A DNA stretch of 64,000 nt from Solirubrobacterales bacterium (GTDB lineage: Bacteria > Actinomycetota > Thermoleophilia > Solirubrobacterales > 70-9): NCBI GenBank assembly GCA_023958085.1, contig JAMLGI010000003.1, forward strand, positions 124,001 to 188,000, given 5' to 3'. Made by a program: the position numbers and the translations under genes. Shown here one piece after another: positions 28,143-56,332 of this stretch (the stretch's first letter is position 1; each line of letters begins with the position of its first letter). A model generated the notes under the pieces. It saw only the letters and a list, made by a program, of their open reading frames with translations, made no database searches and was not told where the DNA came from.

Positions 28143-28191
28143 GTTCTGGAGCCGATAGTGGCGGCCATGTCGCCCAAACCGGCTCCAGAAC
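28143..28191. repeat. 49-bp palindromic unit, copy 1 of pair A
   Basis: Begins GTTCTGGAGCCG and ends CGGCTCCAGAAC (12-bp perfect arms) around a 25-base centre containing ATAGTGGCGG and GTCGCC. Its partner starts 70 bases later. It sits between convergent genes. Confidence 0.85.
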
Positions 28192-28212
28192 CATGGGGTT
28201 CACCACCCACTC

Positions 28213-28261
28213 GTTCTGGAGCCGATAGTGGCGGCCATGTCGCCCAAACCGGCTCCAGAAC
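28213..28261. repeat. 49-bp palindromic unit, copy 2 of pair A
   Basis: Identical to copy 1, and the arms are extended by flanking CCACTC / GAGTGG so that the stem could reach 18 bp. It may also act as a bidirectional terminator. Confidence 0.85.
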
Positions 28262-28277
28262 GAGTGGTGGGGGTGGA

Positions 28278-28784
28278 TCAGCCGGCGGACATTTCGGCTA
28301 GCTTGGCGACTGTGTTCATGTTGCGGGCGGTTGCCACACCGAGATCGAGGGTGAGCTTCGACTGCCCCTGGCCGTCCGGGTAGTGGATGAAGACCTCCCG
28401 GTCGGCGGCGACGAGACGTTCACCGTTCACGCCGCTGGCGATCGCGTCAAGGTCCGGCGGCGGATGACGGTCGAGAAACATCGCAACGACCTTGTTCCCC
28501 GGCTCATCCGGGAAGGGATTGGCGACCACGAGGTCAGCCATCTCCCGGCCGGTTCGGATCAGCACGTCAACCGGCTTGCCGGCGTAGCTCTCCAGTCGAG
28601 TTTCGAGGATCGACCGGGCCCGTTCCGGATCGTCCCCGGTCCGAAAGACGACGTTGCCGCTGGCGATGTAGGTGCGGACGTTCTCGAACCCGGCCTCCTC
28701 GCACATCGTCCTCAGCTCCGCCATCGGCAGCTTGCCGGTTCCGCCCACGTTCACGGCCCTGAGCAGTGCCACCATCGCTTTCAT
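28278..28784 (-). CDS. DUF1697-family protein
   Basis: 168 residues of the DUF1697 family: the N-terminal MVALLRAVNVGGTGKLPMAELR and FENVRTYIASGNVVF are its defining motifs, with a second half around NKVVAMFLDRHPP and QSKLTLDLGVATARNMNTV. These cytoplasmic proteins have a ferredoxin-like fold and no assigned reaction. TATGGT (complement of 28791-28796) lies 6 bases before the ATG, so the gene appears leaderless. Confidence 0.88.
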   Translation of the reverse strand: MKAMVALLRAVNVGGTGKLPMAELRTMCEEAGFENVRTYIASGNVVFRTGDDPERARSILETRLESYAGKPVDVLIRTGREMADLVVANPFPDEPGNKVVAMFLDRHPPPDLDAIASGVNGERLVAADREVFIHYPDGQGQSKLTLDLGVATARNMNTVAKLAEMSAG

Positions 28785-28810
28785 GACCCCACCATAGATG
28801 CGGCCGTGGA

Positions 28811-29227
28811 TCAGACTCGGAGCAGGACGGCCACCATGGTGCCGAGCGTGGCGGTGGTGAGACTGAACATCCCGACCATCATGGTTCGCTGCAGACTGTC
28901 CATGCGGTTTTCCAACCGACTGAACCGGTCTTCGTTCCGACCATTCTGGTCATGGAACTGAGCGTCCATCCGGTCGAATCGGTCGTCCATCCGGTCGAAT
29001 CGGTCGTCCATCCGGTCGAATCGGTCGTCCATCCGGTCGAAACGTTCGTCGACCTGATCGAATCGGGCCTCGGTTCGGGCCTCCATTGCCCGCATCTCCT
29101 CTCGGAACTGCCGGTGGTCCTCCTCATTTCTGGCGAAACCGTCCCGGATCACCTGCACGAGGTCATCGAGCCGTTCATCGGTCCAGGCGGACCGTGACGG
29201 GCGATCGGTGTGAGGTTGACTCACCAT
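28811..29227 (-). CDS. Coiled-coil protein with C-terminal membrane anchor
   Basis: 138 residues from ATG 29227 (M-V-S-Q-P-H), preferred over a Met seven codons upstream because TACTCT ends 6 bases before it. The centre is a heptad coiled coil with four near-identical copies of RFDRMDD encoded by 21-bp DNA repeats, and a C-terminal helix (MVGMFSLTTATLGTMVAVLL) anchors it in the membrane. The architecture resembles small trimeric-coil or t-SNARE-like bacterial proteins of unknown function. The promoter is near consensus. Confidence 0.75.
   Translation of the reverse strand: MVSQPHTDRPSRSAWTDERLDDLVQVIRDGFARNEEDHRQFREEMRAMEARTEARFDQVDERFDRMDDRFDRMDDRFDRMDDRFDRMDAQFHDQNGRNEDRFSRLENRMDSLQRTMMVGMFSLTTATLGTMVAVLLRV
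28963..29046. repeat. 21-bp tandem repeat (four copies) inside the coiled-coil gene
   Basis: Copies begin at 28963, 28984, 29005 and 29026, the unit starting CGTCCATCCGGTCGAATCG; each encodes one heptad on the minus strand. The last copy varies at its end. The length could vary by slippage in whole heptads. Confidence 0.85.
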
Positions 29228-29233
29228 GAAACA

Positions 29234-29261
29234 AGAGTAGACGTTCAAACCTGTCCGTCAA
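29234..29261 (-). promoter_or_regulatory. Promoter of the coiled-coil gene
   Basis: On the minus strand TTGACG (complement of 29256-29261), a 16-base spacer and TACTCT (complement of 29234-29239), then six bases to the ATG. This is the clearest leaderless promoter in the window. Confidence 0.7.
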
Positions 29262-29333
29262 GCGGTTTTCGGCAGATTTGACTGAACTGGCCGACACCTT
29301 TCGCTGTTTCGTGAGTTTCTGCGCAGATTTCTT

Positions 29334-29355
29334 GAGCAACCCCCTTCGGTTGCTC
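29334..29355. other. 8-bp hairpin upstream of metH
   Basis: GAGCAACC (29334-29341), six bases, GGTTGCTC (29348-29355), between divergent genes and about 40 bases before the metH -10 box. It could be an operator; it is not in the transcript if metH is leaderless. Confidence 0.35.
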
Positions 29356-29409
29356 GGGGGAACGGTGGCTTAAAGGGCTCCCCGGTAGCCAATCGCTAGC
29401 CTCTTTCCC

Positions 29410-32400
29410 ATGTCTGAACGCGATTACCTGTCCGCCGTTGCCGATCACATCGTCGTCTTTGATGGCGGGATGGGCGCGACCCTGGAGATGTTCGACCTGA
29501 CCCAGGAGGACTACGGCGGGCTGGCCGGCAAGTGCCACGAGGCCCTGATTCTCAACCGGCCGGATGTGATCGAGGGGGTTCACACATCGATGCTGGAGGC
29601 TGGGGCCGAGGTGGTGGAAACAGACACCTTCCAGGCCTCCCGGATCAAGCTGGACGAGTGGGGTCTGGCCGAGCACACGGTCGAGATAAACGTGAAGGCA
29701 GCCGAGATCGCCCGCAAGGCGGCCGGGCCGGACCGCTTCGTCGCCGGATCGATCGGCCCGACCGGCCATCTCCCCGCATCTGATGATCCGACCCTCGGCA
29801 ACATCCGTTTCGGCGAACTGGTCGAGGTGTTCACCGAACAGGCCGGTGGCCTGGTCAAGGGTGGCGCCGACCTGATCATCATCGAGACGGTCCAGGACAT
29901 CCTCGAAGCCAAGGCGGCGATCTTCGGCGCCCGGGCGGCGTTCGAGGAGATCGGCCGGGCGGTGCCGATCCAGGTTTCCGTCTCACTTCTGCCGAACGGC
30001 GGCAAGATGCTGCTCGGCACCGACATCTCGGCGATGCTGACCACCCTTGAGGCGCTCAAGGTGGATGTGGTCGGGCTGAACTGCTCGACCGGTCCGGAGG
30101 ACATGCGTGACGCGATCCGCTACCTCGGTGAGAACAGCCCGATGCCGATCCACTGCATCCCCAACGCCGGCCTGCCGCTTCAGGGCCCGGATGGCGAAAC
30201 GATCTTCCCGGAGAAGCCGGAGCCGCTCGCCGCCACCCTGGGCGAGTTTGTCGAGAACTACGGGGTCGGTGTGGTCGGCGGCTGCTGCGGCACCACCCCG
30301 GAGCACATCGCCGCGATCGCGGAACGGGTAAAGGGGATAAAGCCGGCAGCCCGACCGGCCCCGGGGGAGATCCGGGTCTCCTCGATGATGACCTCCACCC
30401 CGCTGGTTCAGGAACCCCGACCGACCCTGGTCGGCGAAAGGGTCAACTCCCAGGGTTCCCGCCGGGCCAAGGAGCTGCTGCTGGCCGAGGACTACGACAC
30501 GATCAACCAGATCGCCGAGGATCAGGTCGAGGGCGGCGCCCACGTGCTGGACATCTGTGTGGCCCTGACCGAACGTCAGGACGAGGACGAGCAGATGCGT
30601 CAGGTGGCGAAACGGATCTCGCTGACCCAGCCCGCCCCGATCCAGGTCGACTCGACCGAACCGGATGTGATCAAGACCACCCTGGAGCAGATCCCCGGCC
30701 GGGCGATCGTCAACTCGGTCAACCTCGAGGCGGGTCGCAAGAAACTGGACACCGTGGTTCCGCTCGCCAAGGCACACGGTGCCTGCCTGATCGCGCTGAC
30801 CATCGACGAGGTCGGCATGGCAAAAACCGCGGACCGCAAGGTCGAGATCGCCCAGACGATCACCGACATGGTCGTGGGTGAGCACGGCATGGACCCCGAG
30901 ACGCTGATCTTCGACTGCCTCACCTTCACCCTGACCACCGGTGACGCAGAGTGGCGGCCGTCCGCGGTCGAGACGATCGAGGGCATCCGCCGGATCAAGG
31001 CGGAGATCCCCGGGGTGAAGACCTCGCTCGGCGTTTCCAACGTCTCCTTCGGGGTCTCCCCCGCCGCCCGGGCGGTGCTCAACTCCGTTTTCCTTCACCA
31101 CTGCGTCCAGGCCGGCCTTGACCTGGCGATGGTCAACCCGAACCACATCACCCCCTACGGCGAGATCTCCGAGGAGGAACGGGAGCTGACCGACGACCTG
31201 GTGCTGAACCGCCGCGAGGACGCGCTCGAGCTCTTCATTCAGCACTTCGAGTCGAAGGGCGAGGTCGAGGAGGACGAGGACGCCGACCCGACCGCCGGGA
31301 TGGAGCCGGAGGAGGCCCTCCACTTCCAGATCCTGCGCCGCAAGAAGGAAGGGGTCGAGGACTGGATCGACAGGTCGGTCGAGAAGATCGGTGCCGTCCC
31401 CACCCTGAACGACGTGCTGCTGCCGGCGATGAAGGAGGTCGGGGACAAGTTCGGGGCCGGCGAGCTGATCCTGCCGTTCGTGCTGCAGTCGGCCGAGGTG
31501 ATGAAGAAAGCGGTCAACCGTCTGGAGAACTACCTCGACCGGATCGAGGGTCACACCAAGGGCCGGGTGGTGGTCGCGACCGTGTTCGGTGACGTTCACG
31601 ACATCGGCAAGTCGCTGGTCAACACGATCCTGACCAACAACGGTTACACCGTGATCGACCTCGGCAAACAGGTCCCGGTGGACACGATCATCGACGCCGC
31701 GATCGAGCATGACGCCGACGCGATCGGCCTCTCGGCCCTGTTGGTTTCCACCTCGAAGCAGATGCCGGCCGCGATCCAGGAACTTCACCGTCGCGAGCTG
31801 GACTACCCGGTGCTGATCGGCGGGGCGGCGATCAACCGTGACTTCGGCCGCCGGGTGCTTTACCCGAACGGACGTGAGAACGACGAGATCTACGGCCCCG
31901 GCGTGTTCTACTGCCGGGACGCCTTCCAGGGTCTCGACACGATGGATGCCCTGGTTGACGGCGAGGCCCGCGAGGCGCTGGTCGAGAAGATGCGCTCAGA
32001 GGCCGAGACCTTCCGCAACAAGCCGCAGGTAGAGGAGAACCTGCCGCCGACCACCGATGACTCGGTCCGTTCCACCGCCAGCACCGACGCCCCGATCCCG
32101 ACCCCGCCCTGGTGGGGTGTGCGGGAGGTCCCCGTGGACTTCGATGAGGTGTTCAAGCACCTCGATCTCCACGTGCTGTTCAAGCTCCACTGGGGTGGCC
32201 GCGGGGTGAAGGGCGAGGAGTGGGAGAAGCTGGTTTCCGAGGAGTTCCGGCCGCGGCTGGAGCGGATGTGGGCCGAGCAGGACTACCTCCACCCCCGCGC
32301 CCGGCTCGGGTACTTCCCTTGCAACGCGGACGGCAACGAGCTGGTGATCTTCGATCCCGAGGATCACGACAGGGAGATCAACCGCCTCGTCTTCCCCCGC

Positions 32401-32982
32401 CAGCCGAAGCACGACCGGATCTGCCTGACCGACTTCTACCGGCCGCTGAACGACGAGGGTGTGCGGGATGTGGTCGCGCTCCAGGGCGTGACCGTCGGCC
32501 CGGAGGTGACCGAGCTGATGGATCGCCTGCGGGACAACGACGAGTTCGCCGAACAGCTCTACACCCACGGGCTCGGGGTCCAGAGCGCCGAGGGTCTGGC
32601 CGAGTGGCTTCATCACGAGGCCCGCAAGCAGCTCGGGATCGGCCCGGCCCAGGGCCGCCGCTACTCCTGGGGCTACCCCGCCTGCCCGGAGCAGTCCGAG
32701 CACGAGAAGGTGTGGCAGCTCCTTCACCTGGAGGAAATCGGCATGTATCTCTCCGGCGGTTTCGCGGTGATGCCAGAGCAGTCCACGGTCGCGATCATCG
32801 CCCACCACCCGCAGGCGGTCTACTTCGGCATGAAGTCCGGCTTCATCCCCAAGGGCGAAGCCCCGGACGAGATCATCATCGGCTCCGACCGCTCCGCCAT
32901 CCCGGAATCAGACCCCCGAGACGCCGCGGTCGAGTCCGAAGGCGAAGCCGCCGCAGCCCCGGCCACCGAAGCCACTACCTAA
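29410..32982 (+). CDS. metH: Cobalamin-dependent methionine synthase
   Basis: 1190 residues, full-length MetH. Domains: homocysteine methyltransferase (about 1-310, with zinc Cys in VVGGCCGTTPEH), pterin/methyltetrahydrofolate binding (about 330-610, LVGERVNSQGSRRAKELL), cobalamin cap and binding (about 640-880; DVHDIGKSLV supplies the cobalt-ligating His) and the AdoMet reactivation domain (about 910-1170, RYSWGYPACPEQ). It methylates homocysteine in the cytoplasm. TAGCCT (29397-29402) is 7 bases before the ATG, so the mRNA is probably leaderless and no cobalamin riboswitch is present. The C-terminus has a short Ala/Glu tail. Confidence 0.96.
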   Translation: MSERDYLSAVADHIVVFDGGMGATLEMFDLTQEDYGGLAGKCHEALILNRPDVIEGVHTSMLEAGAEVVETDTFQASRIKLDEWGLAEHTVEINVKAAEIARKAAGPDRFVAGSIGPTGHLPASDDPTLGNIRFGELVEVFTEQAGGLVKGGADLIIIETVQDILEAKAAIFGARAAFEEIGRAVPIQVSVSLLPNGGKMLLGTDISAMLTTLEALKVDVVGLNCSTGPEDMRDAIRYLGENSPMPIHCIPNAGLPLQGPDGETIFPEKPEPLAATLGEFVENYGVGVVGGCCGTTPEHIAAIAERVKGIKPAARPAPGEIRVSSMMTSTPLVQEPRPTLVGERVNSQGSRRAKELLLAEDYDTINQIAEDQVEGGAHVLDICVALTERQDEDEQMRQVAKRISLTQPAPIQVDSTEPDVIKTTLEQIPGRAIVNSVNLEAGRKKLDTVVPLAKAHGACLIALTIDEVGMAKTADRKVEIAQTITDMVVGEHGMDPETLIFDCLTFTLTTGDAEWRPSAVETIEGIRRIKAEIPGVKTSLGVSNVSFGVSPAARAVLNSVFLHHCVQAGLDLAMVNPNHITPYGEISEEERELTDDLVLNRREDALELFIQHFESKGEVEEDEDADPTAGMEPEEALHFQILRRKKEGVEDWIDRSVEKIGAVPTLNDVLLPAMKEVGDKFGAGELILPFVLQSAEVMKKAVNRLENYLDRIEGHTKGRVVVATVFGDVHDIGKSLVNTILTNNGYTVIDLGKQVPVDTIIDAAIEHDADAIGLSALLVSTSKQMPAAIQELHRRELDYPVLIGGAAINRDFGRRVLYPNGRENDEIYGPGVFYCRDAFQGLDTMDALVDGEAREALVEKMRSEAETFRNKPQVEENLPPTTDDSVRSTASTDAPIPTPPWWGVREVPVDFDEVFKHLDLHVLFKLHWGGRGVKGEEWEKLVSEEFRPRLERMWAEQDYLHPRARLGYFPCNADGNELVIFDPEDHDREINRLVFPRQPKHDRICLTDFYRPLNDEGVRDVVALQGVTVGPEVTELMDRLRDNDEFAEQLYTHGLGVQSAEGLAEWLHHEARKQLGIGPAQGRRYSWGYPACPEQSEHEKVWQLLHLEEIGMYLSGGFAVMPEQSTVAIIAHHPQAVYFGMKSGFIPKGEAPDEIIIGSDRSAIPESDPRDAAVESEGEAAAAPATEATT

Positions 32983-33002
32983 ACCCCCACAGCCTCCCTG
33001 TC

Positions 33003-33051
33003 GTCACGGTGAGGATCGGTACCCCTATTCGGCACCGATCCTCACCGTGAC
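33003..33051. terminator. 18-bp perfect hairpin after metH
   Basis: GTCACGGTGAGGATCGGT (33003-33020), a 13-base loop and its exact reverse complement (33034-33051), beginning 20 bases after the metH stop. There is no U-tract; position suggests termination. Confidence 0.65.
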
Positions 33052-33245
33052 CCCGCTTTCGAGATCCAAATAAACCGGCCTCGCTCAGAGCCGGGGACGA
33101 GTCCTTCGTGGCGACCGCCAATGGTCGTCCCGTGGCAGATGCGGCGCGTCAGGGCTGACGGACCATCCTGCCCCGACCACCTCCGCTGGCGATCGCTCAA
33201 TTGCGGACCCGTGTTGGTCAACGGGCCACCCTCCAGGGAGACCCC
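33052..33245. other. Intergenic region between metH and the M23 peptidase gene
   Basis: No credible gene, RNA or repeat seen. Confidence 0.5.
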
Positions 33246-34253
33246 TTAACCCGAGCTTCGCACCCGGCTTGTATCTATCTGGCCGTCGCGGAGCTGGGTG
33301 AAACCCGACGTTCCGCTCCATGAAACCAACCAAACACCGTCACGCTCACGGAAATACAACACATCAGACCGACCATCACCGTTGAAGTCACCCACAAACG
33401 TGCGATCCACATCAATCTGACCATCACGAAGCATCCCAAAACCAGAACTACCAGCCCACGACACCAGCCACGCCCCATCACGCGCACGCAAATACAACAC
33501 ATCGGACTTCCCATCGCCATTGAAGTCTGATGTGGTCTGGCTTCGTTTCCAGTTTGGCTGCACTCCGGTACTTGTGTCGTTCGGGGGAACGGGTTTCGGA
33601 ACGGAGGGCGGCGTTGCGCAGGAGTAACTTTCATTTCGGATTGTCGTTCCCGTCCTGACTTTGTTCCAGCCACTGCCGCCATAGCTTTTCCTCGTCTTGC
33701 CGTGACAAACACGTAGCGCCCCCGGGTTGAGGAAAGCCCCACTGTATGCAGACTTTCTCTCGTCATAGTGGAGGTGCGCGCCGTCCGATGCACCGGAGTT
33801 ACCGGTACGTCCAATGAACTGGCCCGCCTTCACCTTCACACCAGCCCTGATACCAACGGCGATCGAGGAGAAATGCAGATACCTGGACACATGGGATCCG
33901 TGGTTGACCGCGACATGATTCCCCATGCCATCGTGGCAACCCCAATTGGGCGTGTAAGCCCAGCAACCCATCTTCGCGGCCGACACTGCGCCGGCACCGG
34001 ACGCATACACCGCTCTGTTAGCTCCTACCGCGAGATCGATAGCGGGATGTTTGTGATAGCTACTCCCCTTGTACCAGCAGCCGTTGTTCCAAGTGCAACT
34101 CACCTTCATCGTGCCCCGTACGGGAAGCCAATCCGACCCAGCCGTTGCTGAAGCCGACCCTGCCGACACCCCCAAGCCGACGACCGTCAGCACCACCAGC
34201 GCGACAAGACGGCTGAGGGAACCTCCCCGAACTCCAGACACGACCGGACTCAT
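33246..34253 (-). CDS. Secreted M23 metallopeptidase with FG-GAP repeats
   Basis: 335 residues from ATG 34253, chosen for the GGGAG site 6 bases upstream and because it opens a signal peptide (residues 1-37, LSRLVALVVLTVVGLGVSAG, then SASA). The peptidase domain (about 45-190) has the zinc motifs HKHPAIDL (HxxxD) and GAHLHYD (HxH), so it should cut peptidoglycan cross-bridges. Two FG-GAP units follow (DFNGDGKSDVLYL and DFNGDGRSDVLYF), likely calcium-binding propeller blades that position it on a surface. GC is lower than in neighbouring genes. Its promoter is a copy of the CHAP gene's. Confidence 0.85.
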   Translation of the reverse strand: MSPVVSGVRGGSLSRLVALVVLTVVGLGVSAGSASATAGSDWLPVRGTMKVSCTWNNGCWYKGSSYHKHPAIDLAVGANRAVYASGAGAVSAAKMGCWAYTPNWGCHDGMGNHVAVNHGSHVSRYLHFSSIAVGIRAGVKVKAGQFIGRTGNSGASDGAHLHYDERKSAYSGAFLNPGALRVCHGKTRKSYGGSGWNKVRTGTTIRNESYSCATPPSVPKPVPPNDTSTGVQPNWKRSQTTSDFNGDGKSDVLYLRARDGAWLVSWAGSSGFGMLRDGQIDVDRTFVGDFNGDGRSDVLYFRERDGVWLVSWSGTSGFTQLRDGQIDTSRVRSSG

Positions 34254-34317
34254 TCCACACTCCCAAATCATCGGATTCGCGCCAGAAGCCCACACCCCCG
34301 GCAAGACGGACCACGCA

Positions 34318-34347
34318 ATCAAAGCACCCCCTCCCCCGGAAAGTCAA
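34318..34347 (-). promoter_or_regulatory. Promoter of the M23 gene (duplicate of the CHAP-gene promoter)
   Basis: Minus-strand TTGACT (complement of 34342-34347), an 18-base spacer and TTTGAT (complement of 34318-34323). The surrounding segment 34316-34371 is almost identical to 36587-36641. Confidence 0.65.
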
Positions 34348-34411
34348 GGGTGGGAAGTGGGTACGGCAGGCAGAAGACCTACTTCCTCTCGGCCCTGGAG
34401 GCAACTGGCTC

Positions 34412-34509
34412 GGCTTCATCGCCATGGGCGAGGCTCCAGGCGAGATCAATATCGGCTCCGACCGCTCGGCCATCCCGGAATCCGACCCTGGCGACGCCGC
34501 GGTCGAGTC
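34412..34509 (+). pseudogene. Decayed fragment of the metH 3' end
   Basis: 98 bases align without gaps to metH 32839-32936 with about 13 mismatches. In translation GEAPGEINIGSDRSAIPESD corresponds to GEAPDEIIIGSDRSAIPESD of MetH. No start or catalytic domain is attached. It lies on the same strand, on the far side of the M23 gene. Confidence 0.75.
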
Positions 34510-34689
34510 AGGGGCGAACCGGCAGCGGACGGCAATCCGCAGCCAGCGGCAGAACCCGCCGGCGCCTGATTCTGCCAATCGCAACCTCCGAGATCCGGGA
34601 AATCGGCAGAAAGCGCTGATCGCCCGGATCTCGCGACGCACCGGCTATTCACCTCAGCGAGTTCGGCCCGTTGAAGCCCTGGGTTCGTC

Positions 34690-36525: not shown

Positions 36526-36588
36526 TCGAACTCCCCAAACTTTGGCTTGTGTTCCGGAACCGAGATTCCGTGCCCGACGGACCCAGCA

Positions 36589-37473: not shown

Positions 37474-37480
37474 GTTCGGA

Positions 37481-48046: not shown

Positions 48047-48117
48047 GCCTGCCAGAATCTAGCGCCCGGGGCACCCTGAAAACGGAAGCCCGGTGAGAAC
48101 CGGGGCTGACCGTGACG

Positions 48118-50460
48118 TCAGCGGGTGAGCGAGGAGGCCGACTCGCGACTCTTGCGCCGACTGCGCGGATACGGGTCGAGCTCCACCGGGGCGGTGGCGA
48201 TCGCCTGGGCGCGGACATCGCTCCAGGAAAGGCCTTCACGGACCAGGGCCGGAACGCCTAGGGCAGCCGCGGTCGCCATCTCGACCGCCTGCAGGATCAC
48301 CCCGTAGGCGAAGGCGTCGGCCGTGGAGATACCCCAGCCCTTGTGGAGCACGGCGACGACGGCAAGTTGGAACACGCCGATGTTCGACGGCGTCACCGGC
48401 ACCGCGGCGGTGAAGTTCACCGCGAAAAGGACCGCGGCCGAAGCAGCGAAACCGGCCAGGTGATCCAGCCCCAGGGCGAACATCAGGGCCCAGCAGGAGA
48501 GCAGCTGGATCGCCCACGCGGTGAACTGGAGCAGCACCGCCGGGATTCCGTTTCGGGGATGGCGGAACACGGTCAGACCGCGTCGCACCTGAAGCATCAC
48601 CCCGTGCATCGCGTCGGCGAACCGGGCCAGCCTGCCTTCCCCTCCACCCCTGCTTCTGAGCAGCGACGGGGTGACCACAACGGCGACCAGGAGCAGCGGG
48701 GGAATCAGGCTGAACAGCAGGACCTGCCTGGTCGAGTTGTTCTGGAACAGCCCGTCGAAACTCGACAGCACGATCACCGCCAGGACGACCAGGGCAAGAA
48801 TGTTGAACATCGTCTGCGACACGATCGTCCCGATGATCACCGGCAGGGACTCCTTGGCCCGACCGGTGTGACGGGCGAGGCTGAGGGCACGAGCCGGCTC
48901 CCCCATGCGGGCCGGCAGCGTGGCGGACATCAGCACCCCGATCATCGTCGCTGAAGCGAAGTCCCGTTGTCTCAACTTCGAGCCGGGCAGCGCCGACCGG
49001 GCGATCAGCTGCCAGGACCCGGCCCGCACAAAGAGCGATGCGGCCATCAGCACCAGGGCGACCAGGACCCAGGAGAGGTCGGAACGGACGATCGCGGCAG
49101 CGACCTGGTCGACGCCGATCTTGCGGGCGGCGATCACCGAGAGGCCGACTCCGGCCAGGCCGACCGCCCCCATGGCCAGCTTGCGGGCGATCGTCCGACG
49201 GCCCCTCATGGCCCGGACCGGTTCCGGATCGAGCGAGGGCAGCCGGACCGGCGGCTCCGGCGGAAATCCGTCGCTGGTGACCACGCCGAGCCGTCGGCTG
49301 ATCCGTTCCGTGGCGTCGGCCGGGGCGGGAACCTCGATCGCCCGTTCATAGACCCTGGTCACCTGGTCCGCGACCGTCTCCCACGCGTACCGGCGGGAAC
49401 TCTCACGGGCATTGGCGGCCATGCGACTCAGCTGATTCGGTTCGTGGTGGGCTCGCTGCAGCTCCTCGGCAAGCGCCTGCGGATCACCGGGAGGAACCAG
49501 CACACCATCCACCCGATCGGTGACCACGTCCGAGTAGCCGGCGATTCCCGAGGCGATCACCGGAGTGCCCGCGGCGAACGCTTCGGTCAGAACCATGCCG
49601 AAACTCTCACCGGAGAGCGACGGGGCGCAGAGCACATCGGCCTCGGCCAGATGGCGCCACAGTTCCGGCTCGGTGACCCTGCCGTGAAGATCGAGATGCT
49701 GTTCAAGCTCGGGGTGGGCGAGGATCCGCCGGACGTCCTCCGGATCGGCACCGACCACGGCGAGCCGGGCCGGCACGTGATCGACCAGGGCGTCGAAGGC
49801 GCGAAGCAGGACGGGCAGGCCCTTGCGTTCGTCGGGCCTGCCGACAAAGAGCGCCCGCAGGTGGTCGGCGTCGGTCGCCGCGATCTGCGGGGCCGCGTTC
49901 ACGTCGACCCCGTTGGGGATGATTGTGTAGTTCCCGCCGTACCAGCGGCGGCCGGTCCAGGCGGCCGCCTCGGACACCGCGATCCGGGCGGAGAGGCGGT
50001 TCAGCGTTCGCTGTGCACCGGCCATCCGGGCGAGAAGGTGCGGCAACGGCCTGGTCGAGTAGGCGTGGAAGGTTCCCACCACGGGGACCTCGCTCGAGAG
50101 GCAGGTGTCCCAGCCGTTGAGTGGGGTGGTCGGCTCGTGGAGGTGAACCACGTCGAAACCGCCCTCCGCGATCGCCCTGCGGGTGCGTTCGATCGTTTCG
50201 GGAAACATCGGGATGTTGGAGATCGACCCGTTTGCGCCGATCCCGACCGTCCGCCCGACCGGGATCACGTAGTCGGGCATCTCCACCTCTTCGGCGGGAG
50301 CACGGTGAAGCACCTTCGAGAGGCGATCGGCGGGATCGAATGGGGCGATGACACGGACGTAGTGGCCCCGGTCCATGAACTCCGAGGCCAGCGACTGGAC
50401 GTGCCGATTCACTCCACCCTGATAACTCCACGAATAAGGGGTGACGAGGGCTATTCGCAC
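48118..50460 (-). CDS. PimA-like GT4 mannosyltransferase fused to LPG-synthase-type membrane (flippase-like) domain
   Basis: 780 residues from GTG 50460 (V-R-I-A-L-V-T-P-Y). Residues 1-385 form a GT4 glycosyltransferase in the PimA mould: YQGGVNRHVQSLASEF, MPDYVIPVGRTVGIGANGSI, TFHAYSTRPLPH, and the GT4 nucleotide-sugar motif GESFGMVLTEAFAAGTPVI. After a linker, residues about 440-760 hold eight or so helices with VRAGSWQLIARSALPG and ATLPARMGEPARALSLAR, typical of the PF03706 LPG_synthase_TM/UPF0104 family. A frame open to 51018 is not used. TATGCT lies 9 bases before the GTG. Confidence 0.85.
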   Translation of the reverse strand: MRIALVTPYSWSYQGGVNRHVQSLASEFMDRGHYVRVIAPFDPADRLSKVLHRAPAEEVEMPDYVIPVGRTVGIGANGSISNIPMFPETIERTRRAIAEGGFDVVHLHEPTTPLNGWDTCLSSEVPVVGTFHAYSTRPLPHLLARMAGAQRTLNRLSARIAVSEAAAWTGRRWYGGNYTIIPNGVDVNAAPQIAATDADHLRALFVGRPDERKGLPVLLRAFDALVDHVPARLAVVGADPEDVRRILAHPELEQHLDLHGRVTEPELWRHLAEADVLCAPSLSGESFGMVLTEAFAAGTPVIASGIAGYSDVVTDRVDGVLVPPGDPQALAEELQRAHHEPNQLSRMAANARESSRRYAWETVADQVTRVYERAIEVPAPADATERISRRLGVVTSDGFPPEPPVRLPSLDPEPVRAMRGRRTIARKLAMGAVGLAGVGLSVIAARKIGVDQVAAAIVRSDLSWVLVALVLMAASLFVRAGSWQLIARSALPGSKLRQRDFASATMIGVLMSATLPARMGEPARALSLARHTGRAKESLPVIIGTIVSQTMFNILALVVLAVIVLSSFDGLFQNNSTRQVLLFSLIPPLLLVAVVVTPSLLRSRGGGEGRLARFADAMHGVMLQVRRGLTVFRHPRNGIPAVLLQFTAWAIQLLSCWALMFALGLDHLAGFAASAAVLFAVNFTAAVPVTPSNIGVFQLAVVAVLHKGWGISTADAFAYGVILQAVEMATAAALGVPALVREGLSWSDVRAQAIATAPVELDPYPRSRRKSRESASSLTR

Positions 50461-50592
50461 GGACTCCACAGCATAGAGCAGCGGCCCGCGGACAATCGGG
50501 GCTGGCCGCCGTTCCGGGACGGCGGGCCGATATCGTGGCTCCCTGGTGACAGTTCGCTCATCCCTCCCGATCCCGATCCTCGCCGAGGCCGG

Positions 50593-51513
50593 ATGAACCC
50601 GGACGGCCCCTCCCCCGCACCCCCGGACCGGTTCAGGACCGGCGTCGCCCCGGTCAACGGGGTCGAGATCGCCTTCGACGAGTTCGGCGACCCTGCCGAC
50701 CGTCCGCTGCTGGTGGTCCCGGGACTTGGCACCCAGCGGGTCTACTGGCACGAGGATCTCACCCGGATGCTGGCTGAACGCGGTCTCCGGGTCATCCGGA
50801 TGGACAATCGTGACACCGGGGAGTCGACCATCCTCTCGGATCTCGGCACCCCGCCCTGGATACCGATGATGCTCGGGCTCCCGATCGGACTCAGGTACCG
50901 GATCTCGGACATGGCCCGGGATGCGGTCGGTCTGCTCGACCATCTCGGCGTCGAACGGGCTCATCTGGTCGGATTCTCGATGGGCGGAATGATCAGCCAG
51001 AAGGTCGCGGTCGATCACCCCGGCCGGGTCGGCTCACTCTGCTCGATCATGTCCAGAACCGGCCGGCTGAGCGATTCGCTGCCCGGTGGACGTCAGCTGC
51101 TGGCCCTGATGCGACGTGCGCCGACGGTCCGGGACGAGTACCTGACCTACACCGAGGCGCTCGGTGCGGTGATCGGCTCCCCCGCCTACCCGCAGAACCC
51201 CGAGCGACTGCGCGAGATCGCAACCGAGGCGTTCCGCCGCGGCCTCCATCCGGACGGTACGGCCCGTCAGCTTCACGCGATCAACGCCCAGCGGGATCGC
51301 GCCCGGGCCCTGAGCCGGGTCGAAATCCCCTCGCTGGTGATCCATGGTTCGGCCGACCGGCTGGTCTTTCCCCGCGGAGGACGTCACACCGCCGACGTGA
51401 TTCCGGGATCCAGGCTGCGGATCTACGAGGGCATGGGGCACGACCTGCCGGAACAGCTCTGGCCGCGTTTCGTCGACGAGATCGTGTCGAACATCGCCCG
51501 GGCAACCCGCTGA
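50593..51513 (+). CDS. Alpha/beta-hydrolase (aclacinomycin-methylesterase-like)
   Basis: 306 residues from ATG 50593. Nucleophile motif LVGFSMGGMISQ (Ser about residue 122), acid Asp in HGSADRLVFP and His in GMGHDLPEQ; the lid is loop-rich (LGTPPWIPMMLGLPIG). These sequence features match the RdmC/aclacinomycin methylesterase group of cytoplasmic esterases. The 132-base divergent gap to the glycosyltransferase gene holds no other feature that I can support. Confidence 0.83.
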   Translation: MNPDGPSPAPPDRFRTGVAPVNGVEIAFDEFGDPADRPLLVVPGLGTQRVYWHEDLTRMLAERGLRVIRMDNRDTGESTILSDLGTPPWIPMMLGLPIGLRYRISDMARDAVGLLDHLGVERAHLVGFSMGGMISQKVAVDHPGRVGSLCSIMSRTGRLSDSLPGGRQLLALMRRAPTVRDEYLTYTEALGAVIGSPAYPQNPERLREIATEAFRRGLHPDGTARQLHAINAQRDRARALSRVEIPSLVIHGSADRLVFPRGGRHTADVIPGSRLRIYEGMGHDLPEQLWPRFVDEIVSNIARATR

Positions 51514-51607
51514 CCGGCCCGGTCTCGCACCGGCCGATGCCGGCCGGCCGGGTGGCGCTGCCCCGCCGACCCGCCCGACCGGTTCTCCATATCCTTGGTG
51601 ACCCCTC

Positions 51608-53047
51608 ATGAGCAAGCCCGGCAGCCCCGACAACCCGCTCCGCGTCGCGATCATCGGCGCCGGCCCTTCCGGCTTCTACGCCGCCGACCAGTTGATGAAG
51701 GACCCGGAGGTACATGTGCGGGTGGATCTGTTCGACCGGCTGCCGACCCCGTACGGACTGGTCCGGGGCGGGGTCGCTCCGGACCACCCCAAGATCAAGT
51801 CGGTGATCCGGGTCTACCAGCGGACCGCGAGGAAGGACGGGTTTCGTTTCTTCGGCAACGTCGAGATCGGCCGGGACCTGAATGTGGAGGACCTCGAGCG
51901 TCACTACCACGCGATCATCTACACCTTCGGCGCGGAAGCCGACCGGGAGCTGGGCATCCCCGGCGAGGACCTCCCGGGCTCCCACGCCGCGACCGCTTTC
52001 GTCGGCTGGTACAACGCCCATCCCGACTTCGCCCACCGTGACTTCCGGCTCGACCGGGTGAAACGTGCGGTGGTGATCGGCAACGGAAACGTGGCACTCG
52101 ACGTCGCCCGGATGCTGTCCCTGGACGAGGAAACTCTCCGGCAGACCGACATCGCCGACCATGCCATCGCGAAACTCGCCGCCAGCACGATCGAAGAGAT
52201 CGTGGTTCTGGGCCGCCGCGGCCCGGCCCAGGCCGCCTACACAAACCCCGAGATCCGCGAGCTGGGTGAGCTGCCGGAGGCCGACGTGATCGTCGATCCG
52301 GCCGAGGTCGTGCTCGACCCCGCATCGAGCAGTTGGCTGGAGTCGGATGAAGCCGACCAGGCAACCCGGAACAACGTCGAGATCGTCCAGGACTACTCCC
52401 GACGTGAACCGCAAGGCAGGCGGAAGCGGATCATCCTCCGCTTTCTCTCCTCCCCGGTCGAAATCCGGGGCGGTGACCGGGTCGAGAGCGTTCTGATCGG
52501 CCGCAACGAACTGGTGGTCGACGAGGGGGCCCTGCGGGCCCGCGACACCGGCGGCCGGGAGGAACTCTCCTGCGAGCTGATCATGCGTTCGGTCGGCTAC
52601 GTCGGCGTACCCCTGGACGGGGTTCCGTTCGATCAGCGACGCGGGACGATCGTGAACGACCACGGGCGAGTGCTCGACGCACCCGGGGGTGATCCCCTGA
52701 CCGGGCACTACACGGCGGGCTGGATCAAGCGGGGACCTTCCGGCGTGATCGGAACCAACAAGCGCTGCGCCACCGAGACGGTCCAGCACCTGCTTGCCGA
52801 CGTCGAAGCCGGGCGCCTGCTCGACCCGCAGCGGACCGACCCGGACTCGATCGATTCCCTGCTCACCGAACGACGGGCCAACTTTGTGACCTTCGGTGAG
52901 TGGGAGGAGATCGACCGGATCGAGGTCGCCCGGGGCGAGCCTCACGGCCGGCCCCGGATCAAGTTCACCCGGGTCGAGGAGATGCTGGAGGCCGGTCGGG
53001 CTGCTCCCGCCCCCGACCCGGAAAATCCCAACACGGAGAAGGAGTGA
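51608..53047 (+). CDS. fprA: NADPH-ferredoxin reductase (adrenodoxin-reductase type)
   Basis: 479 residues. FAD motif VAIIGAGPSGFYAADQL, then the diagnostic RLPTPYGLVRGGVAPDHPKIK, and the NADP motif VVIGNGNVALDVARML (about 165-180) of FprA. It passes electrons from NADPH to ferredoxins. A TATCCT box 12 bases before the ATG gives a very short leader. bolA and grxD follow on the same strand within 4 and 10 bases, making an Fe-S-related operon. Confidence 0.9.
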   Translation: MSKPGSPDNPLRVAIIGAGPSGFYAADQLMKDPEVHVRVDLFDRLPTPYGLVRGGVAPDHPKIKSVIRVYQRTARKDGFRFFGNVEIGRDLNVEDLERHYHAIIYTFGAEADRELGIPGEDLPGSHAATAFVGWYNAHPDFAHRDFRLDRVKRAVVIGNGNVALDVARMLSLDEETLRQTDIADHAIAKLAASTIEEIVVLGRRGPAQAAYTNPEIRELGELPEADVIVDPAEVVLDPASSSWLESDEADQATRNNVEIVQDYSRREPQGRRKRIILRFLSSPVEIRGGDRVESVLIGRNELVVDEGALRARDTGGREELSCELIMRSVGYVGVPLDGVPFDQRRGTIVNDHGRVLDAPGGDPLTGHYTAGWIKRGPSGVIGTNKRCATETVQHLLADVEAGRLLDPQRTDPDSIDSLLTERRANFVTFGEWEEIDRIEVARGEPHGRPRIKFTRVEEMLEAGRAAPAPDPENPNTEKE

Positions 53048-53051
53048 GTCG

Positions 53052-53282
53052 ATGGCGGCTGACCTGATCGAGCTCAAACGGATGATCGAGGGCGCCCTGC
53101 CCGGATCGAGCGCCGAGGTGTTCGACGAGACCGGCACCGGAGATCATCTCCGGGCCGAGGTGCGGGCCCCCCAGTTCGACGGACAGACCCGGATCAACCA
53201 GCACCGCATGGTCAAGGCGGCGGTGCGGGAACGGTTCGATGACGGAACCATCCACGCTCTGACGATCAAGGTGCTGGAGTAG
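53052..53282 (+). CDS. bolA: BolA-family protein
   Basis: 76 residues from ATG 53052, 4 bases after the fprA stop. The short BolA domain is complete: AEVFDETGTGDHLRAEVRAPQF and the invariant RINQHRMVKAAV (with the His expected to bind an Fe-S cluster), ending ALTIKVLE. BolA proteins pair with monothiol glutaredoxins to move or sense Fe-S clusters; the glutaredoxin gene follows directly. Confidence 0.88.
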   Translation: MAADLIELKRMIEGALPGSSAEVFDETGTGDHLRAEVRAPQFDGQTRINQHRMVKAAVRERFDDGTIHALTIKVLE

Positions 53283-53292
53283 CATCAGGGCC

Positions 53293-53694
53293 ATGGCTGA
53301 CCAGGAGCTGACCGACCGCGTCAAGGAACTCATCGCCGAAAACCCGGTGCTTCTCTTCATGAAGGGCACCCCGGCCGCACCCCGCTGCGGCTTTTCGATG
53401 CGCACCGCCCAGATCCTGGAACAGACCGGGGTCGAGTACGGCGCGGTCGATGTGCTCCCGGCCCTGCAGCCGCTGCGCGAGGTGACCAGCGAGATCTCCG
53501 ACTGGGAGACCTTCCCGCAGCTTTACGTAAACGGCGAGCTGGTCGGCGGCTGCGACATCGTCGAGGAGATGTTCGACAACGGCGAGCTGGCGAAACTGCT
53601 CGGAATCAAGCAGCCTGCCCCGGCCGCGGAAGCCCCGGCCGGCGATGGCGACGACGGTTACTCGAGCCTGCCGATGCAGATCGAGGGCAGCTGA
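53293..53694 (+). CDS. grxD: Monothiol glutaredoxin (Grx4 type)
   Basis: 133 residues. The CGFS active site lies in PAAPRCGFSMRTAQIL (Cys about residue 32); KGTPAAP and the WETFPQLYVNGELVGGCDIVEEM segment are typical of Fe-S-binding monothiol glutaredoxins. TAGCAT (53280-53285), overlapping the bolA stop codon, ends 7 bases before the ATG, so a second leaderless transcript is possible. About 30 Ala/Pro-rich residues extend the C-terminus. Confidence 0.92.
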   Translation: MADQELTDRVKELIAENPVLLFMKGTPAAPRCGFSMRTAQILEQTGVEYGAVDVLPALQPLREVTSEISDWETFPQLYVNGELVGGCDIVEEMFDNGELAKLLGIKQPAPAAEAPAGDGDDGYSSLPMQIEGS

Positions 53695-53703
53695 GCCGAC
53701 CCG

Positions 53704-53722
53704 GACCGGCCCCCGGCCGGTC
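53704..53722. terminator. Bidirectional hairpin between grxD and the A-type carrier gene
   Basis: GACCGGCC, CCC, GGCCGGTC: a perfect 8-bp stem between two convergent Fe-S genes. No T-tract. Confidence 0.5.
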
Positions 53723-53739
53723 GGGAATGCGAGCCCGGG

Positions 53740-54111
53740 TCAGACCGCAGCGGTCTCGGCGTCGTCCTTCACCTGGAAGGACGATCCACAGCCGCAGGCG
53801 GCAACCACGTTCGGGTTGTTCACCTGGAAGCCGGCTCCGGTCAGACCGTCGACGTAGTCGACCTCGGAACCGAACACAAACTGCATGCTGACCTTGTCGA
53901 CGATCACCGACACTCCGCGGTGCTCGAACTCGAGGTCTTCCTCGGTCTTGGTGTCGAAGGCGAGGGCGTACTGGAACCCGGAGCAGCCTCCGCCACGAAC
54001 GGCGATCCGCAGGGCCTGACGATCCGGGCCATCCTGATCCCCGATCATCTCGGCGATCCTGGTCGCGGCGGTCTCGGTCAGGGAGATTGCGGAATCCGAT
54101 GCTTCAGCCAT
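53740..54111 (-). CDS. A-type Fe-S carrier (IscA/ErpA family)
   Basis: 123 residues from ATG 54111. The three conserved cysteines are present: GGGCSGFQY and ACGCGSSF near the C-terminus, and the length fits ErpA/IscA. The frame is open upstream across the divergent DegV gene, but TACTCT on the minus strand ends 6 bases before this ATG and marks the start. It accepts and delivers Fe-S clusters in the cytoplasm. It is convergent with bolA-grxD. Confidence 0.92.
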   Translation of the reverse strand: MAEASDSAISLTETAATRIAEMIGDQDGPDRQALRIAVRGGGCSGFQYALAFDTKTEEDLEFEHRGVSVIVDKVSMQFVFGSEVDYVDGLTGAGFQVNNPNVVAACGCGSSFQVKDDAETAAV

Positions 54112-54207
54112 GTCCCAAGAGTAGCGGTTGGGAACGGTGGCCACGACTCCGTCGCCGGGAAGCGGCGAGAGCGGGTTGATCCGGTACCGGTCTGATAGAA
54201 ACAGGGC

Positions 54208-55095
54208 GTGCCCGCGGATCCAGCCATCGCTCTGGTCACCGACTCGACCGCTTCGCTCTCGGACGAAGACCGCGAACGCCTCGACGTGGCCGTGGTCAGT
54301 CTCTACGTGGTGCTCGATGGTGAGCAGCAGCGTGAAGACACGATCGAGGACTATCCCGCCTTCTATCAGGCGGTTCTCGACAGCCCCCGCCAGACAACCA
54401 CCTCCCAGCCGTCGGTCGGTGACTTCACCGACATCTACCTGCCGCTGCTGGAGGAAGGCCGGGAGATCATCTCGGTCCATCTCTCCAGCGGCATCTCCGG
54501 CACCTGCGAAGCGGCCCGGCAGGCAGCCACCGCCCTGACCGAAGGTGGCCGTGGCGGTGAGCGGATCCACGTGGTCGACTCGAGAACGACTTCCGGGGGG
54601 CTTGCCTTCTGCGTGCTCGCGGCCGCCAACGGGATTCGGGCGGGAGAGTCCGTCGGGGAGATCATCGAGCGGATCGAACGGACCAGGGACGGGATCGACA
54701 CCCTCTTGATGGTCGACACTCTGGACTACCTGCGCAAGGGCGGTCGGATCGGCAGCGCCCAGGCCATGATCGGTGGCGCTCTGAAGATCAAGCCCCTGAT
54801 CAAGCTTGAGGAAACCGTGAAACCGGTGGACAAGGTGAGAACCTCCGCCCGGGCGATGGAGAAGATGCGCGAGTACGCCCGCAAAAAGGCCGCCGGGGGC
54901 GAAGAGATCACCTGGACGGTCCAGCACATCCAGCGACCCGAGGTGGCGGCCGACCTCGCCGCCTGGTGTCGGGAGGCCTTCCAGTGCGAGGGCGCGTTTC
55001 TCGACGAGATGACCGTCGTCCTCGGGGTCCACTCCGGTCCGGGCACGGTCGCGATCGGCACCGTGCCAACCGAGCTGGTCGGATCCAAGTTTTGA
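54208..55095 (+). CDS. DegV family protein
   Basis: 295 residues from GTG 54208. DegV motifs: IALVTDSTASLSDE at the N-terminus, TTTSQPSVGDF, ISVHLSSGISGTCEAA and VDSRTTSGGLAF; DYLRKGGRIGSAQAMIGGALKIKPLI in the second lobe. Family members bind a fatty acid and serve as the acyl-carrier FakB in fatty-acid kinase systems. TAGAAA (54196-54201) lies 6 bases before the GTG. The next gene overlaps by 4 bases. Confidence 0.9.
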   Translation: MPADPAIALVTDSTASLSDEDRERLDVAVVSLYVVLDGEQQREDTIEDYPAFYQAVLDSPRQTTTSQPSVGDFTDIYLPLLEEGREIISVHLSSGISGTCEAARQAATALTEGGRGGERIHVVDSRTTSGGLAFCVLAAANGIRAGESVGEIIERIERTRDGIDTLLMVDTLDYLRKGGRIGSAQAMIGGALKIKPLIKLEETVKPVDKVRTSARAMEKMREYARKKAAGGEEITWTVQHIQRPEVAADLAAWCREAFQCEGAFLDEMTVVLGVHSGPGTVAIGTVPTELVGSKF

Positions 55096-55631
55096 ATTTC
55101 GCGGTCACCGCGATCGGGCGGGACCGGCCCGGTATCGTCGCCGCGATCACCGGGGCACTGCTCGACGCAGGTGGCAACGTGGACGACTCCCAGATGTCGA
55201 TCCTCCACGGGCACTTCGCGGTGATGCTGATCGCGAACCTGCCGGCGGATGGCCCCGACGACCCGGCCCTGGCCGGACTTCGGGAGGAGCTCGACCGGGT
55301 CGGGCGGGAGTTTGACCTTGGCGGGATCACGATCAGTCCGGTGTCCGGACTTGAACGCGGGGCCGATCCGACCCACCTGTTGACGGTGTACGGAGCCGAC
55401 CGGCCCGGGATCGTCCACGACACCGCCCGTCTGCTGGCCGGACTCGGGATCAACATCACCGATCTCCGTACCCGCCGGACCGGCACCGCGGATTCACCGC
55501 TCTACACGCTGATGATCGAGATCTCCGTCCCGGCCGGGGCCGAGGATCGACTCACCGTCGATCTGGCCGAACTTGGCGCGACCGGAGACGTGGAGGCCCA
55601 CCTCTCCCGACTCGAAGCCGACGTTCTCTGA
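55092..55631 (+). CDS. Two-ACT-domain protein (GcvR-like)
   Basis: 179 residues from TTG 55092 (TTGA overlap with degV). Two ACT domains: residues 1-85 (VTAIGRDRPGIVAAITGALLDAGGNVDDSQMS) and 92-175 (TVYGADRPGIVHDTARLLAGLGINITDLRT). This layout matches GcvR, a regulator of glycine cleavage, and formyltetrahydrofolate-deformylase N-domains; ligand binding is expected but unknown. def follows 21 bases downstream. Confidence 0.85.
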   Translation: MNFAVTAIGRDRPGIVAAITGALLDAGGNVDDSQMSILHGHFAVMLIANLPADGPDDPALAGLREELDRVGREFDLGGITISPVSGLERGADPTHLLTVYGADRPGIVHDTARLLAGLGINITDLRTRRTGTADSPLYTLMIEISVPAGAEDRLTVDLAELGATGDVEAHLSRLEADVL

Positions 55632-55652
55632 ACGGCAGGGACCGTTTTCGCG

Positions 55653-56198
55653 ATGGCTGTCCGCAAGGTCCTCACCTATCCGGATCCGATGCTGAAGCAG
55701 CTCTGCGCCCCGGCCCAGCCGGAGGAGGTGGAGCCAGTGGTCCTGGACCTGCTCGACACGATGAACTCGTTCGACCACTGTGTCGGACTGGCCGCACCCC
55801 AGATCGGCCATCCGGTCCGGATCGCTGTGGTGGACATCACCGGTCACCCGCGGGCGAAGGACCCGCAGGGGCTGATGGTGATGGTGAACCCGCGGATCGA
55901 GTGGCGCTCCGAGGGCAGCAAGGTGAGCCGTGAGGGCTGCCTCAGCCTCCCGGACCTCACCGCCAACGTCCGTCGCCCGCGCAAGGCGGGGGTCAGCTTC
56001 AGCGGCATCGCCACCGACCAGCGGATCTCCACCGCGGAAGCCGCCGCTCCGGACAGTCACCGGCCGCAGCGGGTCGAGCTGGCCTCGTTCGAGGCCCGCT
56101 GCGTGCTCCACGAGATCGACCATCTCGACGGGATCCTCTTCCTCGACCGGGTCGCCTCGATCACCGACGACCTCTTCCGCCGCCAGACCTACAGCTAA
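55653..56198 (+). CDS. def: Peptide deformylase
   Basis: 181 residues with all three metal motifs: GLAAPQIG (residues 49-56), EGCLSLP (about 92-98) and HEIDH (about 152-156). It removes the N-formyl group from nascent proteins. Insertion around residues 100-130 (TAEAAAPDSHRPQR) is slightly longer than in the enterobacterial enzyme. It ends the degV/ACT/def cluster; the second palindrome pair follows. Confidence 0.93.
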   Translation: MAVRKVLTYPDPMLKQLCAPAQPEEVEPVVLDLLDTMNSFDHCVGLAAPQIGHPVRIAVVDITGHPRAKDPQGLMVMVNPRIEWRSEGSKVSREGCLSLPDLTANVRRPRKAGVSFSGIATDQRISTAEAAAPDSHRPQRVELASFEARCVLHEIDHLDGILFLDRVASITDDLFRRQTYS

Positions 56199-56212
56199 CC
56201 CCACCCCCAACC

Positions 56213-56261
56213 GTTCTGGAGCCGATAGTGGAGCCTATGCCGCCTAAATCGGCTCCAGAAC
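56213..56261. repeat. 49-bp palindromic unit, copy 1 of pair B
   Basis: Same outer arms as pair A (GTTCTGGAGCCGAT / ATCGGCTCCAGAAC) with a different centre (GTGGAGCCTATGCCGCC). Lies just after def. Confidence 0.85.
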
Positions 56262-56283
56262 CAAACTCCGTCTGCCCCCAGCC

Positions 56284-56332
56284 GTTCTGGAGCCGATAGT
56301 GGAGGCTATATCGCCTAAATCGGCTCCAGAAC
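56284..56332. repeat. 49-bp palindromic unit, copy 2 of pair B
   Basis: Starts 71 bases after copy 1; centre GTGGAGGCTATATCGCC. The flanks CC/GG extend the stem slightly. Both copies lie between convergent genes. Confidence 0.85.

Follow-up and report, generated by a model that had tools for sequence, protein, structure and literature searches.

Palindromic units in the window

The DNA analysed here is a 64-kb stretch (the window) from a Solirubrobacterales bacterium. It contains four 49-bp palindromic units, arranged in two pairs (Table 1). The preliminary description was accurate on the positions of the units, on their 12-bp arms (exactly GTTCTGGAGCCG/CGGCTCCAGAAC) and on the near-constant spacing within the pairs (70 bp and 71 bp); the centres between the arms measure 25 bp. 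The hairpins of the units are very stable (z -4.2 to -9.7), in keeping with the stable stem-loop of an intrinsic terminator. The likeness of the locus 2 spacer to the spacers of L076 and L083 appears to be a trace of pairs moving together. Two further palindromes in the window are solitary, and the M23 peptidase gene between them was rejected as a candidate element gene, since it does not belong to DUF559. In the congeners G004 and G006, a palindrome with other arms also lies 3' of the peptide deformylase gene.

Table 1. Palindromic units in the 64-kb window and the genes next to them
Feature	Position	Strand	Remarks
FhuF C-terminal 2Fe-2S domain gene	27401..28129	+	stops 13 bp 5' of locus 1; neighbour, not part
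49-bp palindromic unit, locus 1 copy 1	28143..28191	+	23 + YAT-type 3-bp centre + 23
Spacer of locus 1 pair, 21 bp	28192..28212	.	spacers mostly unrelated from locus to locus
49-bp palindromic unit, locus 1 copy 2	28213..28261	+	identical to copy 1
DUF1697 gene	28278..28784	-	neighbour of locus 1, convergent
Solitary 49-bp palindrome, other arm family	33003..33051	.	GTCACGGTGAGGATCGGT arms, CTAT centre; 20 bp 3' of metH stop codon
Solitary CGAG-type (genus-wide family) copy	34589..34633	-	model R1, 35 bits, E 2.7e-5
Peptide deformylase gene	55653..56198	+	adjoins locus 2
49-bp palindromic unit, locus 2 copy 1	56213..56261	+	14 bp 3' of peptide deformylase stop codon
Spacer of locus 2 pair, 22 bp	56262..56283	.	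matches L076 spacer 18/22, L083 spacer 21/22
49-bp palindromic unit, locus 2 copy 2	56284..56332	+	
DUF3618 gene	56492..56896	-	neighbour of locus 2, convergent

The GTTCTGGAGCCG family across the source genome

The 49-bp palindromes of the window are members of a repeat family dispersed over the genome. A genome search for the arms returned 31 exact copies, rising to 74-75 when up to 2-3 mismatches were allowed, while a reversed control pattern gave 0; hence the copies are not due to chance. All of the approximately 75 copies in 2.44 Mb are intergenic by gene calls, as expected of a high-copy intergenic palindrome of the REP kind. Unit statistics were drawn from the genome stretches around the copies, and the C7/C29 near-duplicate was not counted as evidence on evolution, since the end of C29 falls within a unit. 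The 71 non-redundant units form 28 direct pairs and 15 singles. The fixed pairing is seen at 28 of the 43 loci, in direct orientation throughout, and the spacing is 71 bp in 23 pairs, 70 bp in three, and 72 bp and 69 bp in one each. The arms are nearly invariant (3 changes in 1278 positions) and the centre is variable. Candidate units in the fetched stretches around copies have either 0-3 arm mismatches or the background value of 7, with no intermediates. The dyad lies at unit position 25 and the YAT at positions 24-26, while the innermost positions of the half-sites are imperfectly symmetric. An inner stem at offset i+j=53 was also considered and received no support from covariation. Exact arms are found only paired inside units, both in the window and in the fetched stretches, which is not the pattern of a DNA uptake sequence.

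Placement between convergent genes holds for both window loci and is enriched genome-wide, but the family is not confined there. By our own rough gene caller, 17 loci are convergent, 20 co-directional and 6 divergent, against a window baseline of 9/33/10 (p=0.02). The extended arms of the second copies are present in the window (18 and 16 bp) but do not extend to the family: over all 71 units, pairing between the left and the right flank is no stronger than in shuffled flanks (157 vs 150.4 +/- 8.8), and the extension is therefore attributed to C-rich left and G-rich right flanks. In the 71 units with flanks, no T-run follows the stem (positions 50-71 are G-rich) and the position table holds no GTAG or CGTC tag at the unit end. 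The target-site duplication expected of a MITE of a DDE transposon is absent, as no 3-9 bp direct repeat rose above shuffled flanks, and no pair of empty and filled sites was found. Rfam returned no family at gathering score and, below that threshold, weak matches to miRNA families that are unrelated; the exact family had 0 matches in GTDB contigs and viral contigs.

Related palindromes and DUF559 genes in congeners

Congeners carry 45-49-bp palindromes that end in CGAG and have different arms with the same central YAT and core. Over the 10 pairs that the search pattern did not constrain, covariation is 0.664, compared with 0.232 when shuffled and at most 0.22 when slid. Compensatory changes in the stems, which had been proposed as a check, are thus strong and two-sided among congeners, whereas within the source genome the arms are conserved by sequence. 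A covariance model links the GTTCTGGAGCCG family to the genus family weakly (E 0.9-9), though in register. The congener palindromes have no strand bias relative to genes (21 same, 27 opposite). Of 59 congener loci, only a few lie at an intergenic site shared with the source genome (G000), which makes a fixed regulatory element appear unlikely. An excess of 2-bp direct repeats in congeners probably comes from the palindromic end dinucleotides. The REP-associated tyrosine transposase suggested by the preliminary description did not turn up: Y1_Tnp (PF01797) is absent from the source genome and from every palindrome-carrying congener, while control genomes gave matches, and the sole congener with a Y1 transposase has no such palindromes.

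DUF559 is a Pfam family of unknown function. The same palindrome-like repeat stands on both flanks of 34 of the 48 DUF559 genes in the genus, compared with 3 of 120 control ORFs (p=6e-21); the other 14 DUF559 genes have no clear shared flank repeat. DUF559 genes are present in 11/11 palindrome carriers and in 3/7 non-carriers (p=0.011), and protein identity tracks the similarity of the flanking palindromes (Mantel r=0.476, p=0.0002). Solo copies of the cognate palindromes are dispersed in the same genomes for 9 of 14 families, on partial sequence, and shuffled queries gave 0. Other candidates for an autonomous copy, taken from the genes that separate adjacent unit clusters (NHL repeat, TetR, FAD oxidase, baeRF), were unremarkable, and only DUF559 recurred. 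A single-protein query found no DUF559 in viral contigs, and the literature searched held no link between DUF559 proteins and palindromes. The GTTCTGGAGCCG family has no DUF559 gene directly flanked on both sides. Near C7:49172, a DUF559 gene has unit pairs ~136 bp on its 5' side and ~85 bp beyond the following lyase gene; this gene, in a two-gene operon bracketed by unit pairs, is likely the cognate gene of the family.

In the DUF559 protein, a fold like that of AbiEi, which binds inverted repeats, is joined to a homing-endonuclease fold of the Vsr/I-Bth0305I kind. Residues 40-241 adopt the AbiEi fold (6y8q, Z 11.9), and residues 247-347 match I-Bth0305I (3r3p, Z 12.7, rmsd 2.6 over 95 residues) and Vsr (1cw0, Z 10.8). 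The catalytic residues D279, E290, H297, D306, and R322 occur in 48/48 proteins and D292 in 98%. PADLOC AbiEi models also match DUF559 proteins. The protein looks like a homing DNA-cutting enzyme joined to a palindrome-binding domain, with cutting and binding as its predicted activities.

A candidate mobile element and its alternatives

The palindromes that bracket DUF559 genes suggest a previously undescribed spreading palindrome element. We think it fairly probable that the units are recognition palindromes and non-autonomous copies of a REP-like element with an AbiEi-Vsr (DUF559) nuclease. A full element would run palindrome - DUF559 gene - palindrome, and most units would now be solo or paired non-autonomous copies. 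Two protein monomers may each occupy one 23-bp half-site, on either side of the fixed 3-bp centre, in line with the 23+3+23 layout published for the AbiEi operator. The nuclease would cut the DNA, and repair of the break would place a copy of the palindrome, or of the entire element, at further intergenic sites, mainly at gene ends. The 71-bp direct pair could be an element shrunk to its two end palindromes. EDxHD/Vsr-like homing endonucleases (I-Bth0305I, PDB 3r3p) share the catalytic fold and the near-invariant D/E/D/H/D/R residues with the DUF559 protein. Unlike that of I-Bth0305I, the DUF559 gene lies outside an intron or intein, is bracketed by palindromes, and encodes an AbiEi-like DNA-binding domain. 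A selfish, site-specific nuclease is the simplest model for the protein.

AbiEi proteins autoregulate via inverted repeats, and their operator consists of two 23-bp repeats with a 3-bp gap (PMC7319586). This 23+3+23 = 49 bp geometry of AbiEi antitoxin operators (AbiEi, Rv2827c) is identical to that of the units, and the fold of the binding domain is common to DUF559 proteins (6y8q, 1zel); the geometry match is one length coincidence together with fold homology. Unlike AbiEi, the DUF559 binding domain is fused to a nuclease, and unlike AbiEi operators the palindromes stand on either side of the gene as well as throughout the genome, mostly at gene ends. The palindromes could instead serve an AbiEi-like autoregulated nuclease, of toxin-antitoxin or defence type, as its operators and as decoys or regulon sites; it would bind them to control its own gene and others, with no selfish spread. 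The autoregulation, the unit geometry, and the PADLOC matches favour this alternative, but we consider it unlikely: the sites are mostly at gene ends rather than promoters, the DUF559 gene has palindromes of the same sequence on its 3' side as well, there are up to 75 copies, and most loci are not common to different species.

It is less likely still that the units serve as bidirectional transcription terminators, or stabilise mRNA 3' ends, and have been homogenised within the genome. Their stable hairpins, their positions near stop codons, and their enrichment between convergent genes would suit this role. However, the terminator family offered in the preliminary description does not account for arms kept, within the source genome, by sequence instead of compensatory change, for the 6/43 loci between divergent genes, for the missing T-run, or for the strand symmetry in congeners, and it does not predict the bracketing of DUF559 genes.

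The REP/BIME idea of the preliminary description holds as a functional likeness but is not supported as membership. REP, REPIN, and BIME elements with RAYT (PMC2817692, PMC3116915, PMC3733652) also comprise many short intergenic palindromes that are frequently dimeric and differ in sequence from species to species, and the gene for their dedicated enzyme has the same palindromes on its flanks. Their enzyme is an HUH Y1 transposase, whereas here it is an AbiEi-Vsr (DUF559) nuclease, and the units differ in lacking the tags, in their 49 bp with a fixed 3-bp centre, and in forming direct dimers of constant 71-bp spacing in the source genome. CGTC-tagged REPs, which were described without a dedicated transposase (PMC3733652), likewise consist of recurring palindromes with which no Y1 enzyme is associated, but their dimers are mainly head-head and they carry the CGTC tag that the units lack. 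A classical REP/BIME whose RAYT was lost, or lies in unsequenced DNA, is very improbable: the units are palindromic, intergenic, and often dimeric and the gene could be missing from a 95% complete assembly, but neither Y1_Tnp in any carrier nor a tag was found, and the one congener with Y1 has no palindromes.

The link between palindromes and DUF559 gives each a directly testable partner: the palindrome next to a DUF559 gene should be bound, and perhaps also cut, by the protein which that gene encodes. If this link is true, it would add a non-HUH enzyme class to the REP-like elements and offer numerous natural pairs of protein and site whose specificities co-vary. A broader proposal, on which we are evenly divided, is that elements of the form palindrome - AbiEi/Vsr fusion nuclease - palindrome make up a new selfish DNA class of Actinomycetota, which spread their recognition palindromes through genomes, are non-homologous to REP/RAYT, and have several independent cognate families per genome. 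A Tsukamurella DUF559 gene has the same layout, its palindrome occurring at nine places on three records of the species, with two of these places flanking the gene.

The 49-bp units and their pairing

The four 49-bp palindromic units of the window lie where the preliminary description placed them (table). Their arms recur in the genome assembly (G000; 2.44 Mb in 31 contigs, 95% complete), where a genome-wide pattern search finds 31 exact copies, or about 75 once near-exact ones are counted, and 0 for the reversed pattern. The stretches fetched around these copies, with a near-duplicate on contig C29 left out, hold 71 units arranged as 28 direct pairs and 15 singles. The near-fixed pairing noticed in the window recurs as well, with a spacing of 71 bp in 23 pairs, 70 in 3, 69 in 1, and 72 in 1. 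According to a home-made gene caller every unit locus is intergenic; 17 loci show the convergent-gene setting seen in the window, 20 are flanked by co-directional genes, and 6 by divergent ones. Unit clusters in L052, L062, L080, and L084 adjoin apparent tRNA genes (judged by eye from the sequence).

The unit arms are maintained while the centre drifts. This follows from the 3 changes in 1278 at arm positions 4-12 and 38-46 of the 71 units, from a mean heterozygosity of 0.005 in these arms (centre, 0.24; near left flank, 0.61), and from the 67 distinct sequences among the 71. Decayed copies were not seen in the stretches examined. Centres differ less between pair members (3.79) than between random partners (6.17, shuffled sd 0.33). 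Pair spacers are mostly unrelated to one another; two small groups with similar spacers suggest that pairs sometimes moved together. A second repeat family directly follows locus 2 and also adjoins units at L058, L059, L064, L070, L072, L074, and L081. It is sometimes tandem, with a period of ~154 bp, and is found in the congeners G009 and G004.

Repeats, palindromes and a bracketed gene in the window
Feature	Position	Strand	Remarks
Locus 1, first unit	28143-28191
Locus 1, second unit	28213-28261
Solitary palindrome	33003-33051		other arm family
M23-peptidase/FG-GAP gene	33246-34322	minus
Solitary palindrome	34589-34633		other arm family
Locus 2, first unit	56213-56261
Locus 2, second unit	56284-56332
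~150-bp repeat	~56337-56495		ends GGCGGGTGGTYCGCAGG / CCTGCGGRCCGCCCGC, inner CGTACTTCGGTACG hairpin

DUF559 genes bracketed by palindromes

A Y1 (REP-associated tyrosine) transposase, for which the preliminary description proposed a test, is absent from G000 and from every palindrome-carrying congener. DUF559 genes (PF04480) were first met between palindromes in two species, while genes between neighbouring clusters were being scanned; these two cases prompted the flank-repeat test and are not independent of the bracketing hypothesis, while the remaining genes are. A profile search gives 52 matches in 14 of 18 congeners, with DUF559 present in 11/11 palindrome carriers vs 3/7 non-carriers (p=0.011). 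When the left and right 250-bp flanks of 48 of the 52 were compared, 34 genes had a repeat common to both, against 3 of 120 size-matched control ORFs from five congeners (p=6e-21). The repeat is usually a 40-50-bp palindrome, and in most cases its sequence is particular to its own gene. Of the 33 genes used for a Mantel test, 20 have the repeat in direct and 13 in inverted orientation, and palindrome similarity follows protein similarity (r=0.476, p=0.0002; between genomes only, r=0.493). Extra copies elsewhere in the same genome were found for 9 of 14 cognate palindrome families (shuffled queries, 0) in partial sequence. Part of this sequence had been selected for containing palindromes, which does not apply to the 20-kb stretches from G001 and G009, and in one family the extra copies are partly duplicate retrievals of its own flanks (L254/L399).

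Two distinct DUF559 loci are present in G000, and C29 carries a near-duplicate of one of them. The gene at C7:88713 has its own palindrome (CCGAGGTGTCGATTATCC...) on each side. The gene at C7:49172 leads an operon whose only other gene encodes a beta-eliminating lyase; one GTTCTGGAGCCG pair lies ~136 bp before the operon and a second ~85 bp after it. By elimination and position, it is likely the cognate of the window's family. Over 5.9 kb, C29 (L088) matches C7 (L071) at 99.8% identity, and the shared part takes in the DUF559 gene and unit pairs; the left context of C29 differs and its contig end falls inside a unit. This may reflect duplication, a strain variant, or an assembly effect.

A single case, not a survey, comes from Tsukamurella, whose gene was the one full-length match among plasmid records and was not picked for its flanks. 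It has GCGGTGGAT-N21-ATCCACCGC on each side, inverted (alignment score 34.5), and a 42-bp query has nine matches across three records from this species, of which two are the gene-flanking copies. DUF559 genes are also found in G002, G007, and G017 (L413-L415, L408, L409), genomes without CGAG-type palindromes (the genus-wide family with CGAG ends). Other palindromes occur in one flank at L415 and L408, which makes further arm families likely. In the window, the solitary palindromes around the M23-peptidase/FG-GAP gene are placed much like those beside DUF559 genes, except that their arms are unlike each other. No description of a link between such nucleases (DUF559, Vsr, or homing endonucleases) and palindromic repeats was found in the open-access papers searched.

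Protein architecture and proposed mechanism

The structure model of the C7:88713 protein (mean pLDDT 89) matches the AbiEi antitoxin at residues 40-241 (6y8q, Z 11.9), and both the I-Bth0305I homing endonuclease (3r3p, Z 12.7) and Vsr (1cw0, Z 10.8) at residues 247-347; sequence profiles concur. Across 48 DUF559 proteins, D279, E290, H297, D306, and R322 never vary, and D292 is conserved in 98%. AbiEi binds a pair of 23-bp inverted repeats with a 3-bp gap (PMC7319586). Together these span 49 bp, the length of the unit, whose 3-bp centre is YAT (positions 24-26). Parsimony favours a REP-like element served by an AbiEi-Vsr nuclease, for which we infer that the AbiEi-like domain would recognise the palindromic site, the Vsr-like domain would cut DNA, and repair would copy the element. 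Solo and paired palindromes would be non-autonomous derivatives. No target duplication was seen beside the palindromes, nor did a pair of empty and filled sites come to light.

Related palindromes in other genomes

The arms of the amplified G000 units are absent from the other 49 genomes in its taxonomic family. When congener stretches were scanned de novo, palindromes again 49 bp long but with different arms appeared: CGCGAGATGCAGATC in 34 copies in G004 and several kinds in G001. The generic pattern CGAGRT-N15-YAT-N15-AYCTCG matches in 16 of 50 family genomes (reversed control, 0). Compensatory change in the stems, for which the preliminary description proposed a test, was scored in 62 sequences of this pattern as covariation over the ten base pairs left free by it: 0.664 vs 0.232 +/- 0.019 shuffled and <=0.22 slid. 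Such covariation does not discriminate a single-stranded hairpin from a double-stranded operator of two half-sites. At E <= 0.001, a covariance model recovers family members from 18 of 232 genomes of the order, most of which belong to this genus and a single sister genus. The model aligns with the amplified G000 units in register but weakly (E 0.9-9), so the case for their putative homology to the CGAG family depends chiefly on length, centre, and core. Palindrome positions are mostly unshared between species, which argues for turnover, short of demonstrating movement. The congener G006 has inverted palindrome dimers with equal 61-bp spacing in L273 (1438/1499) and L342 (1499/1560). This arrangement recalls REPIN/BIME dimers and differs from that of G000, where the dimers are direct and spaced 71 bp.
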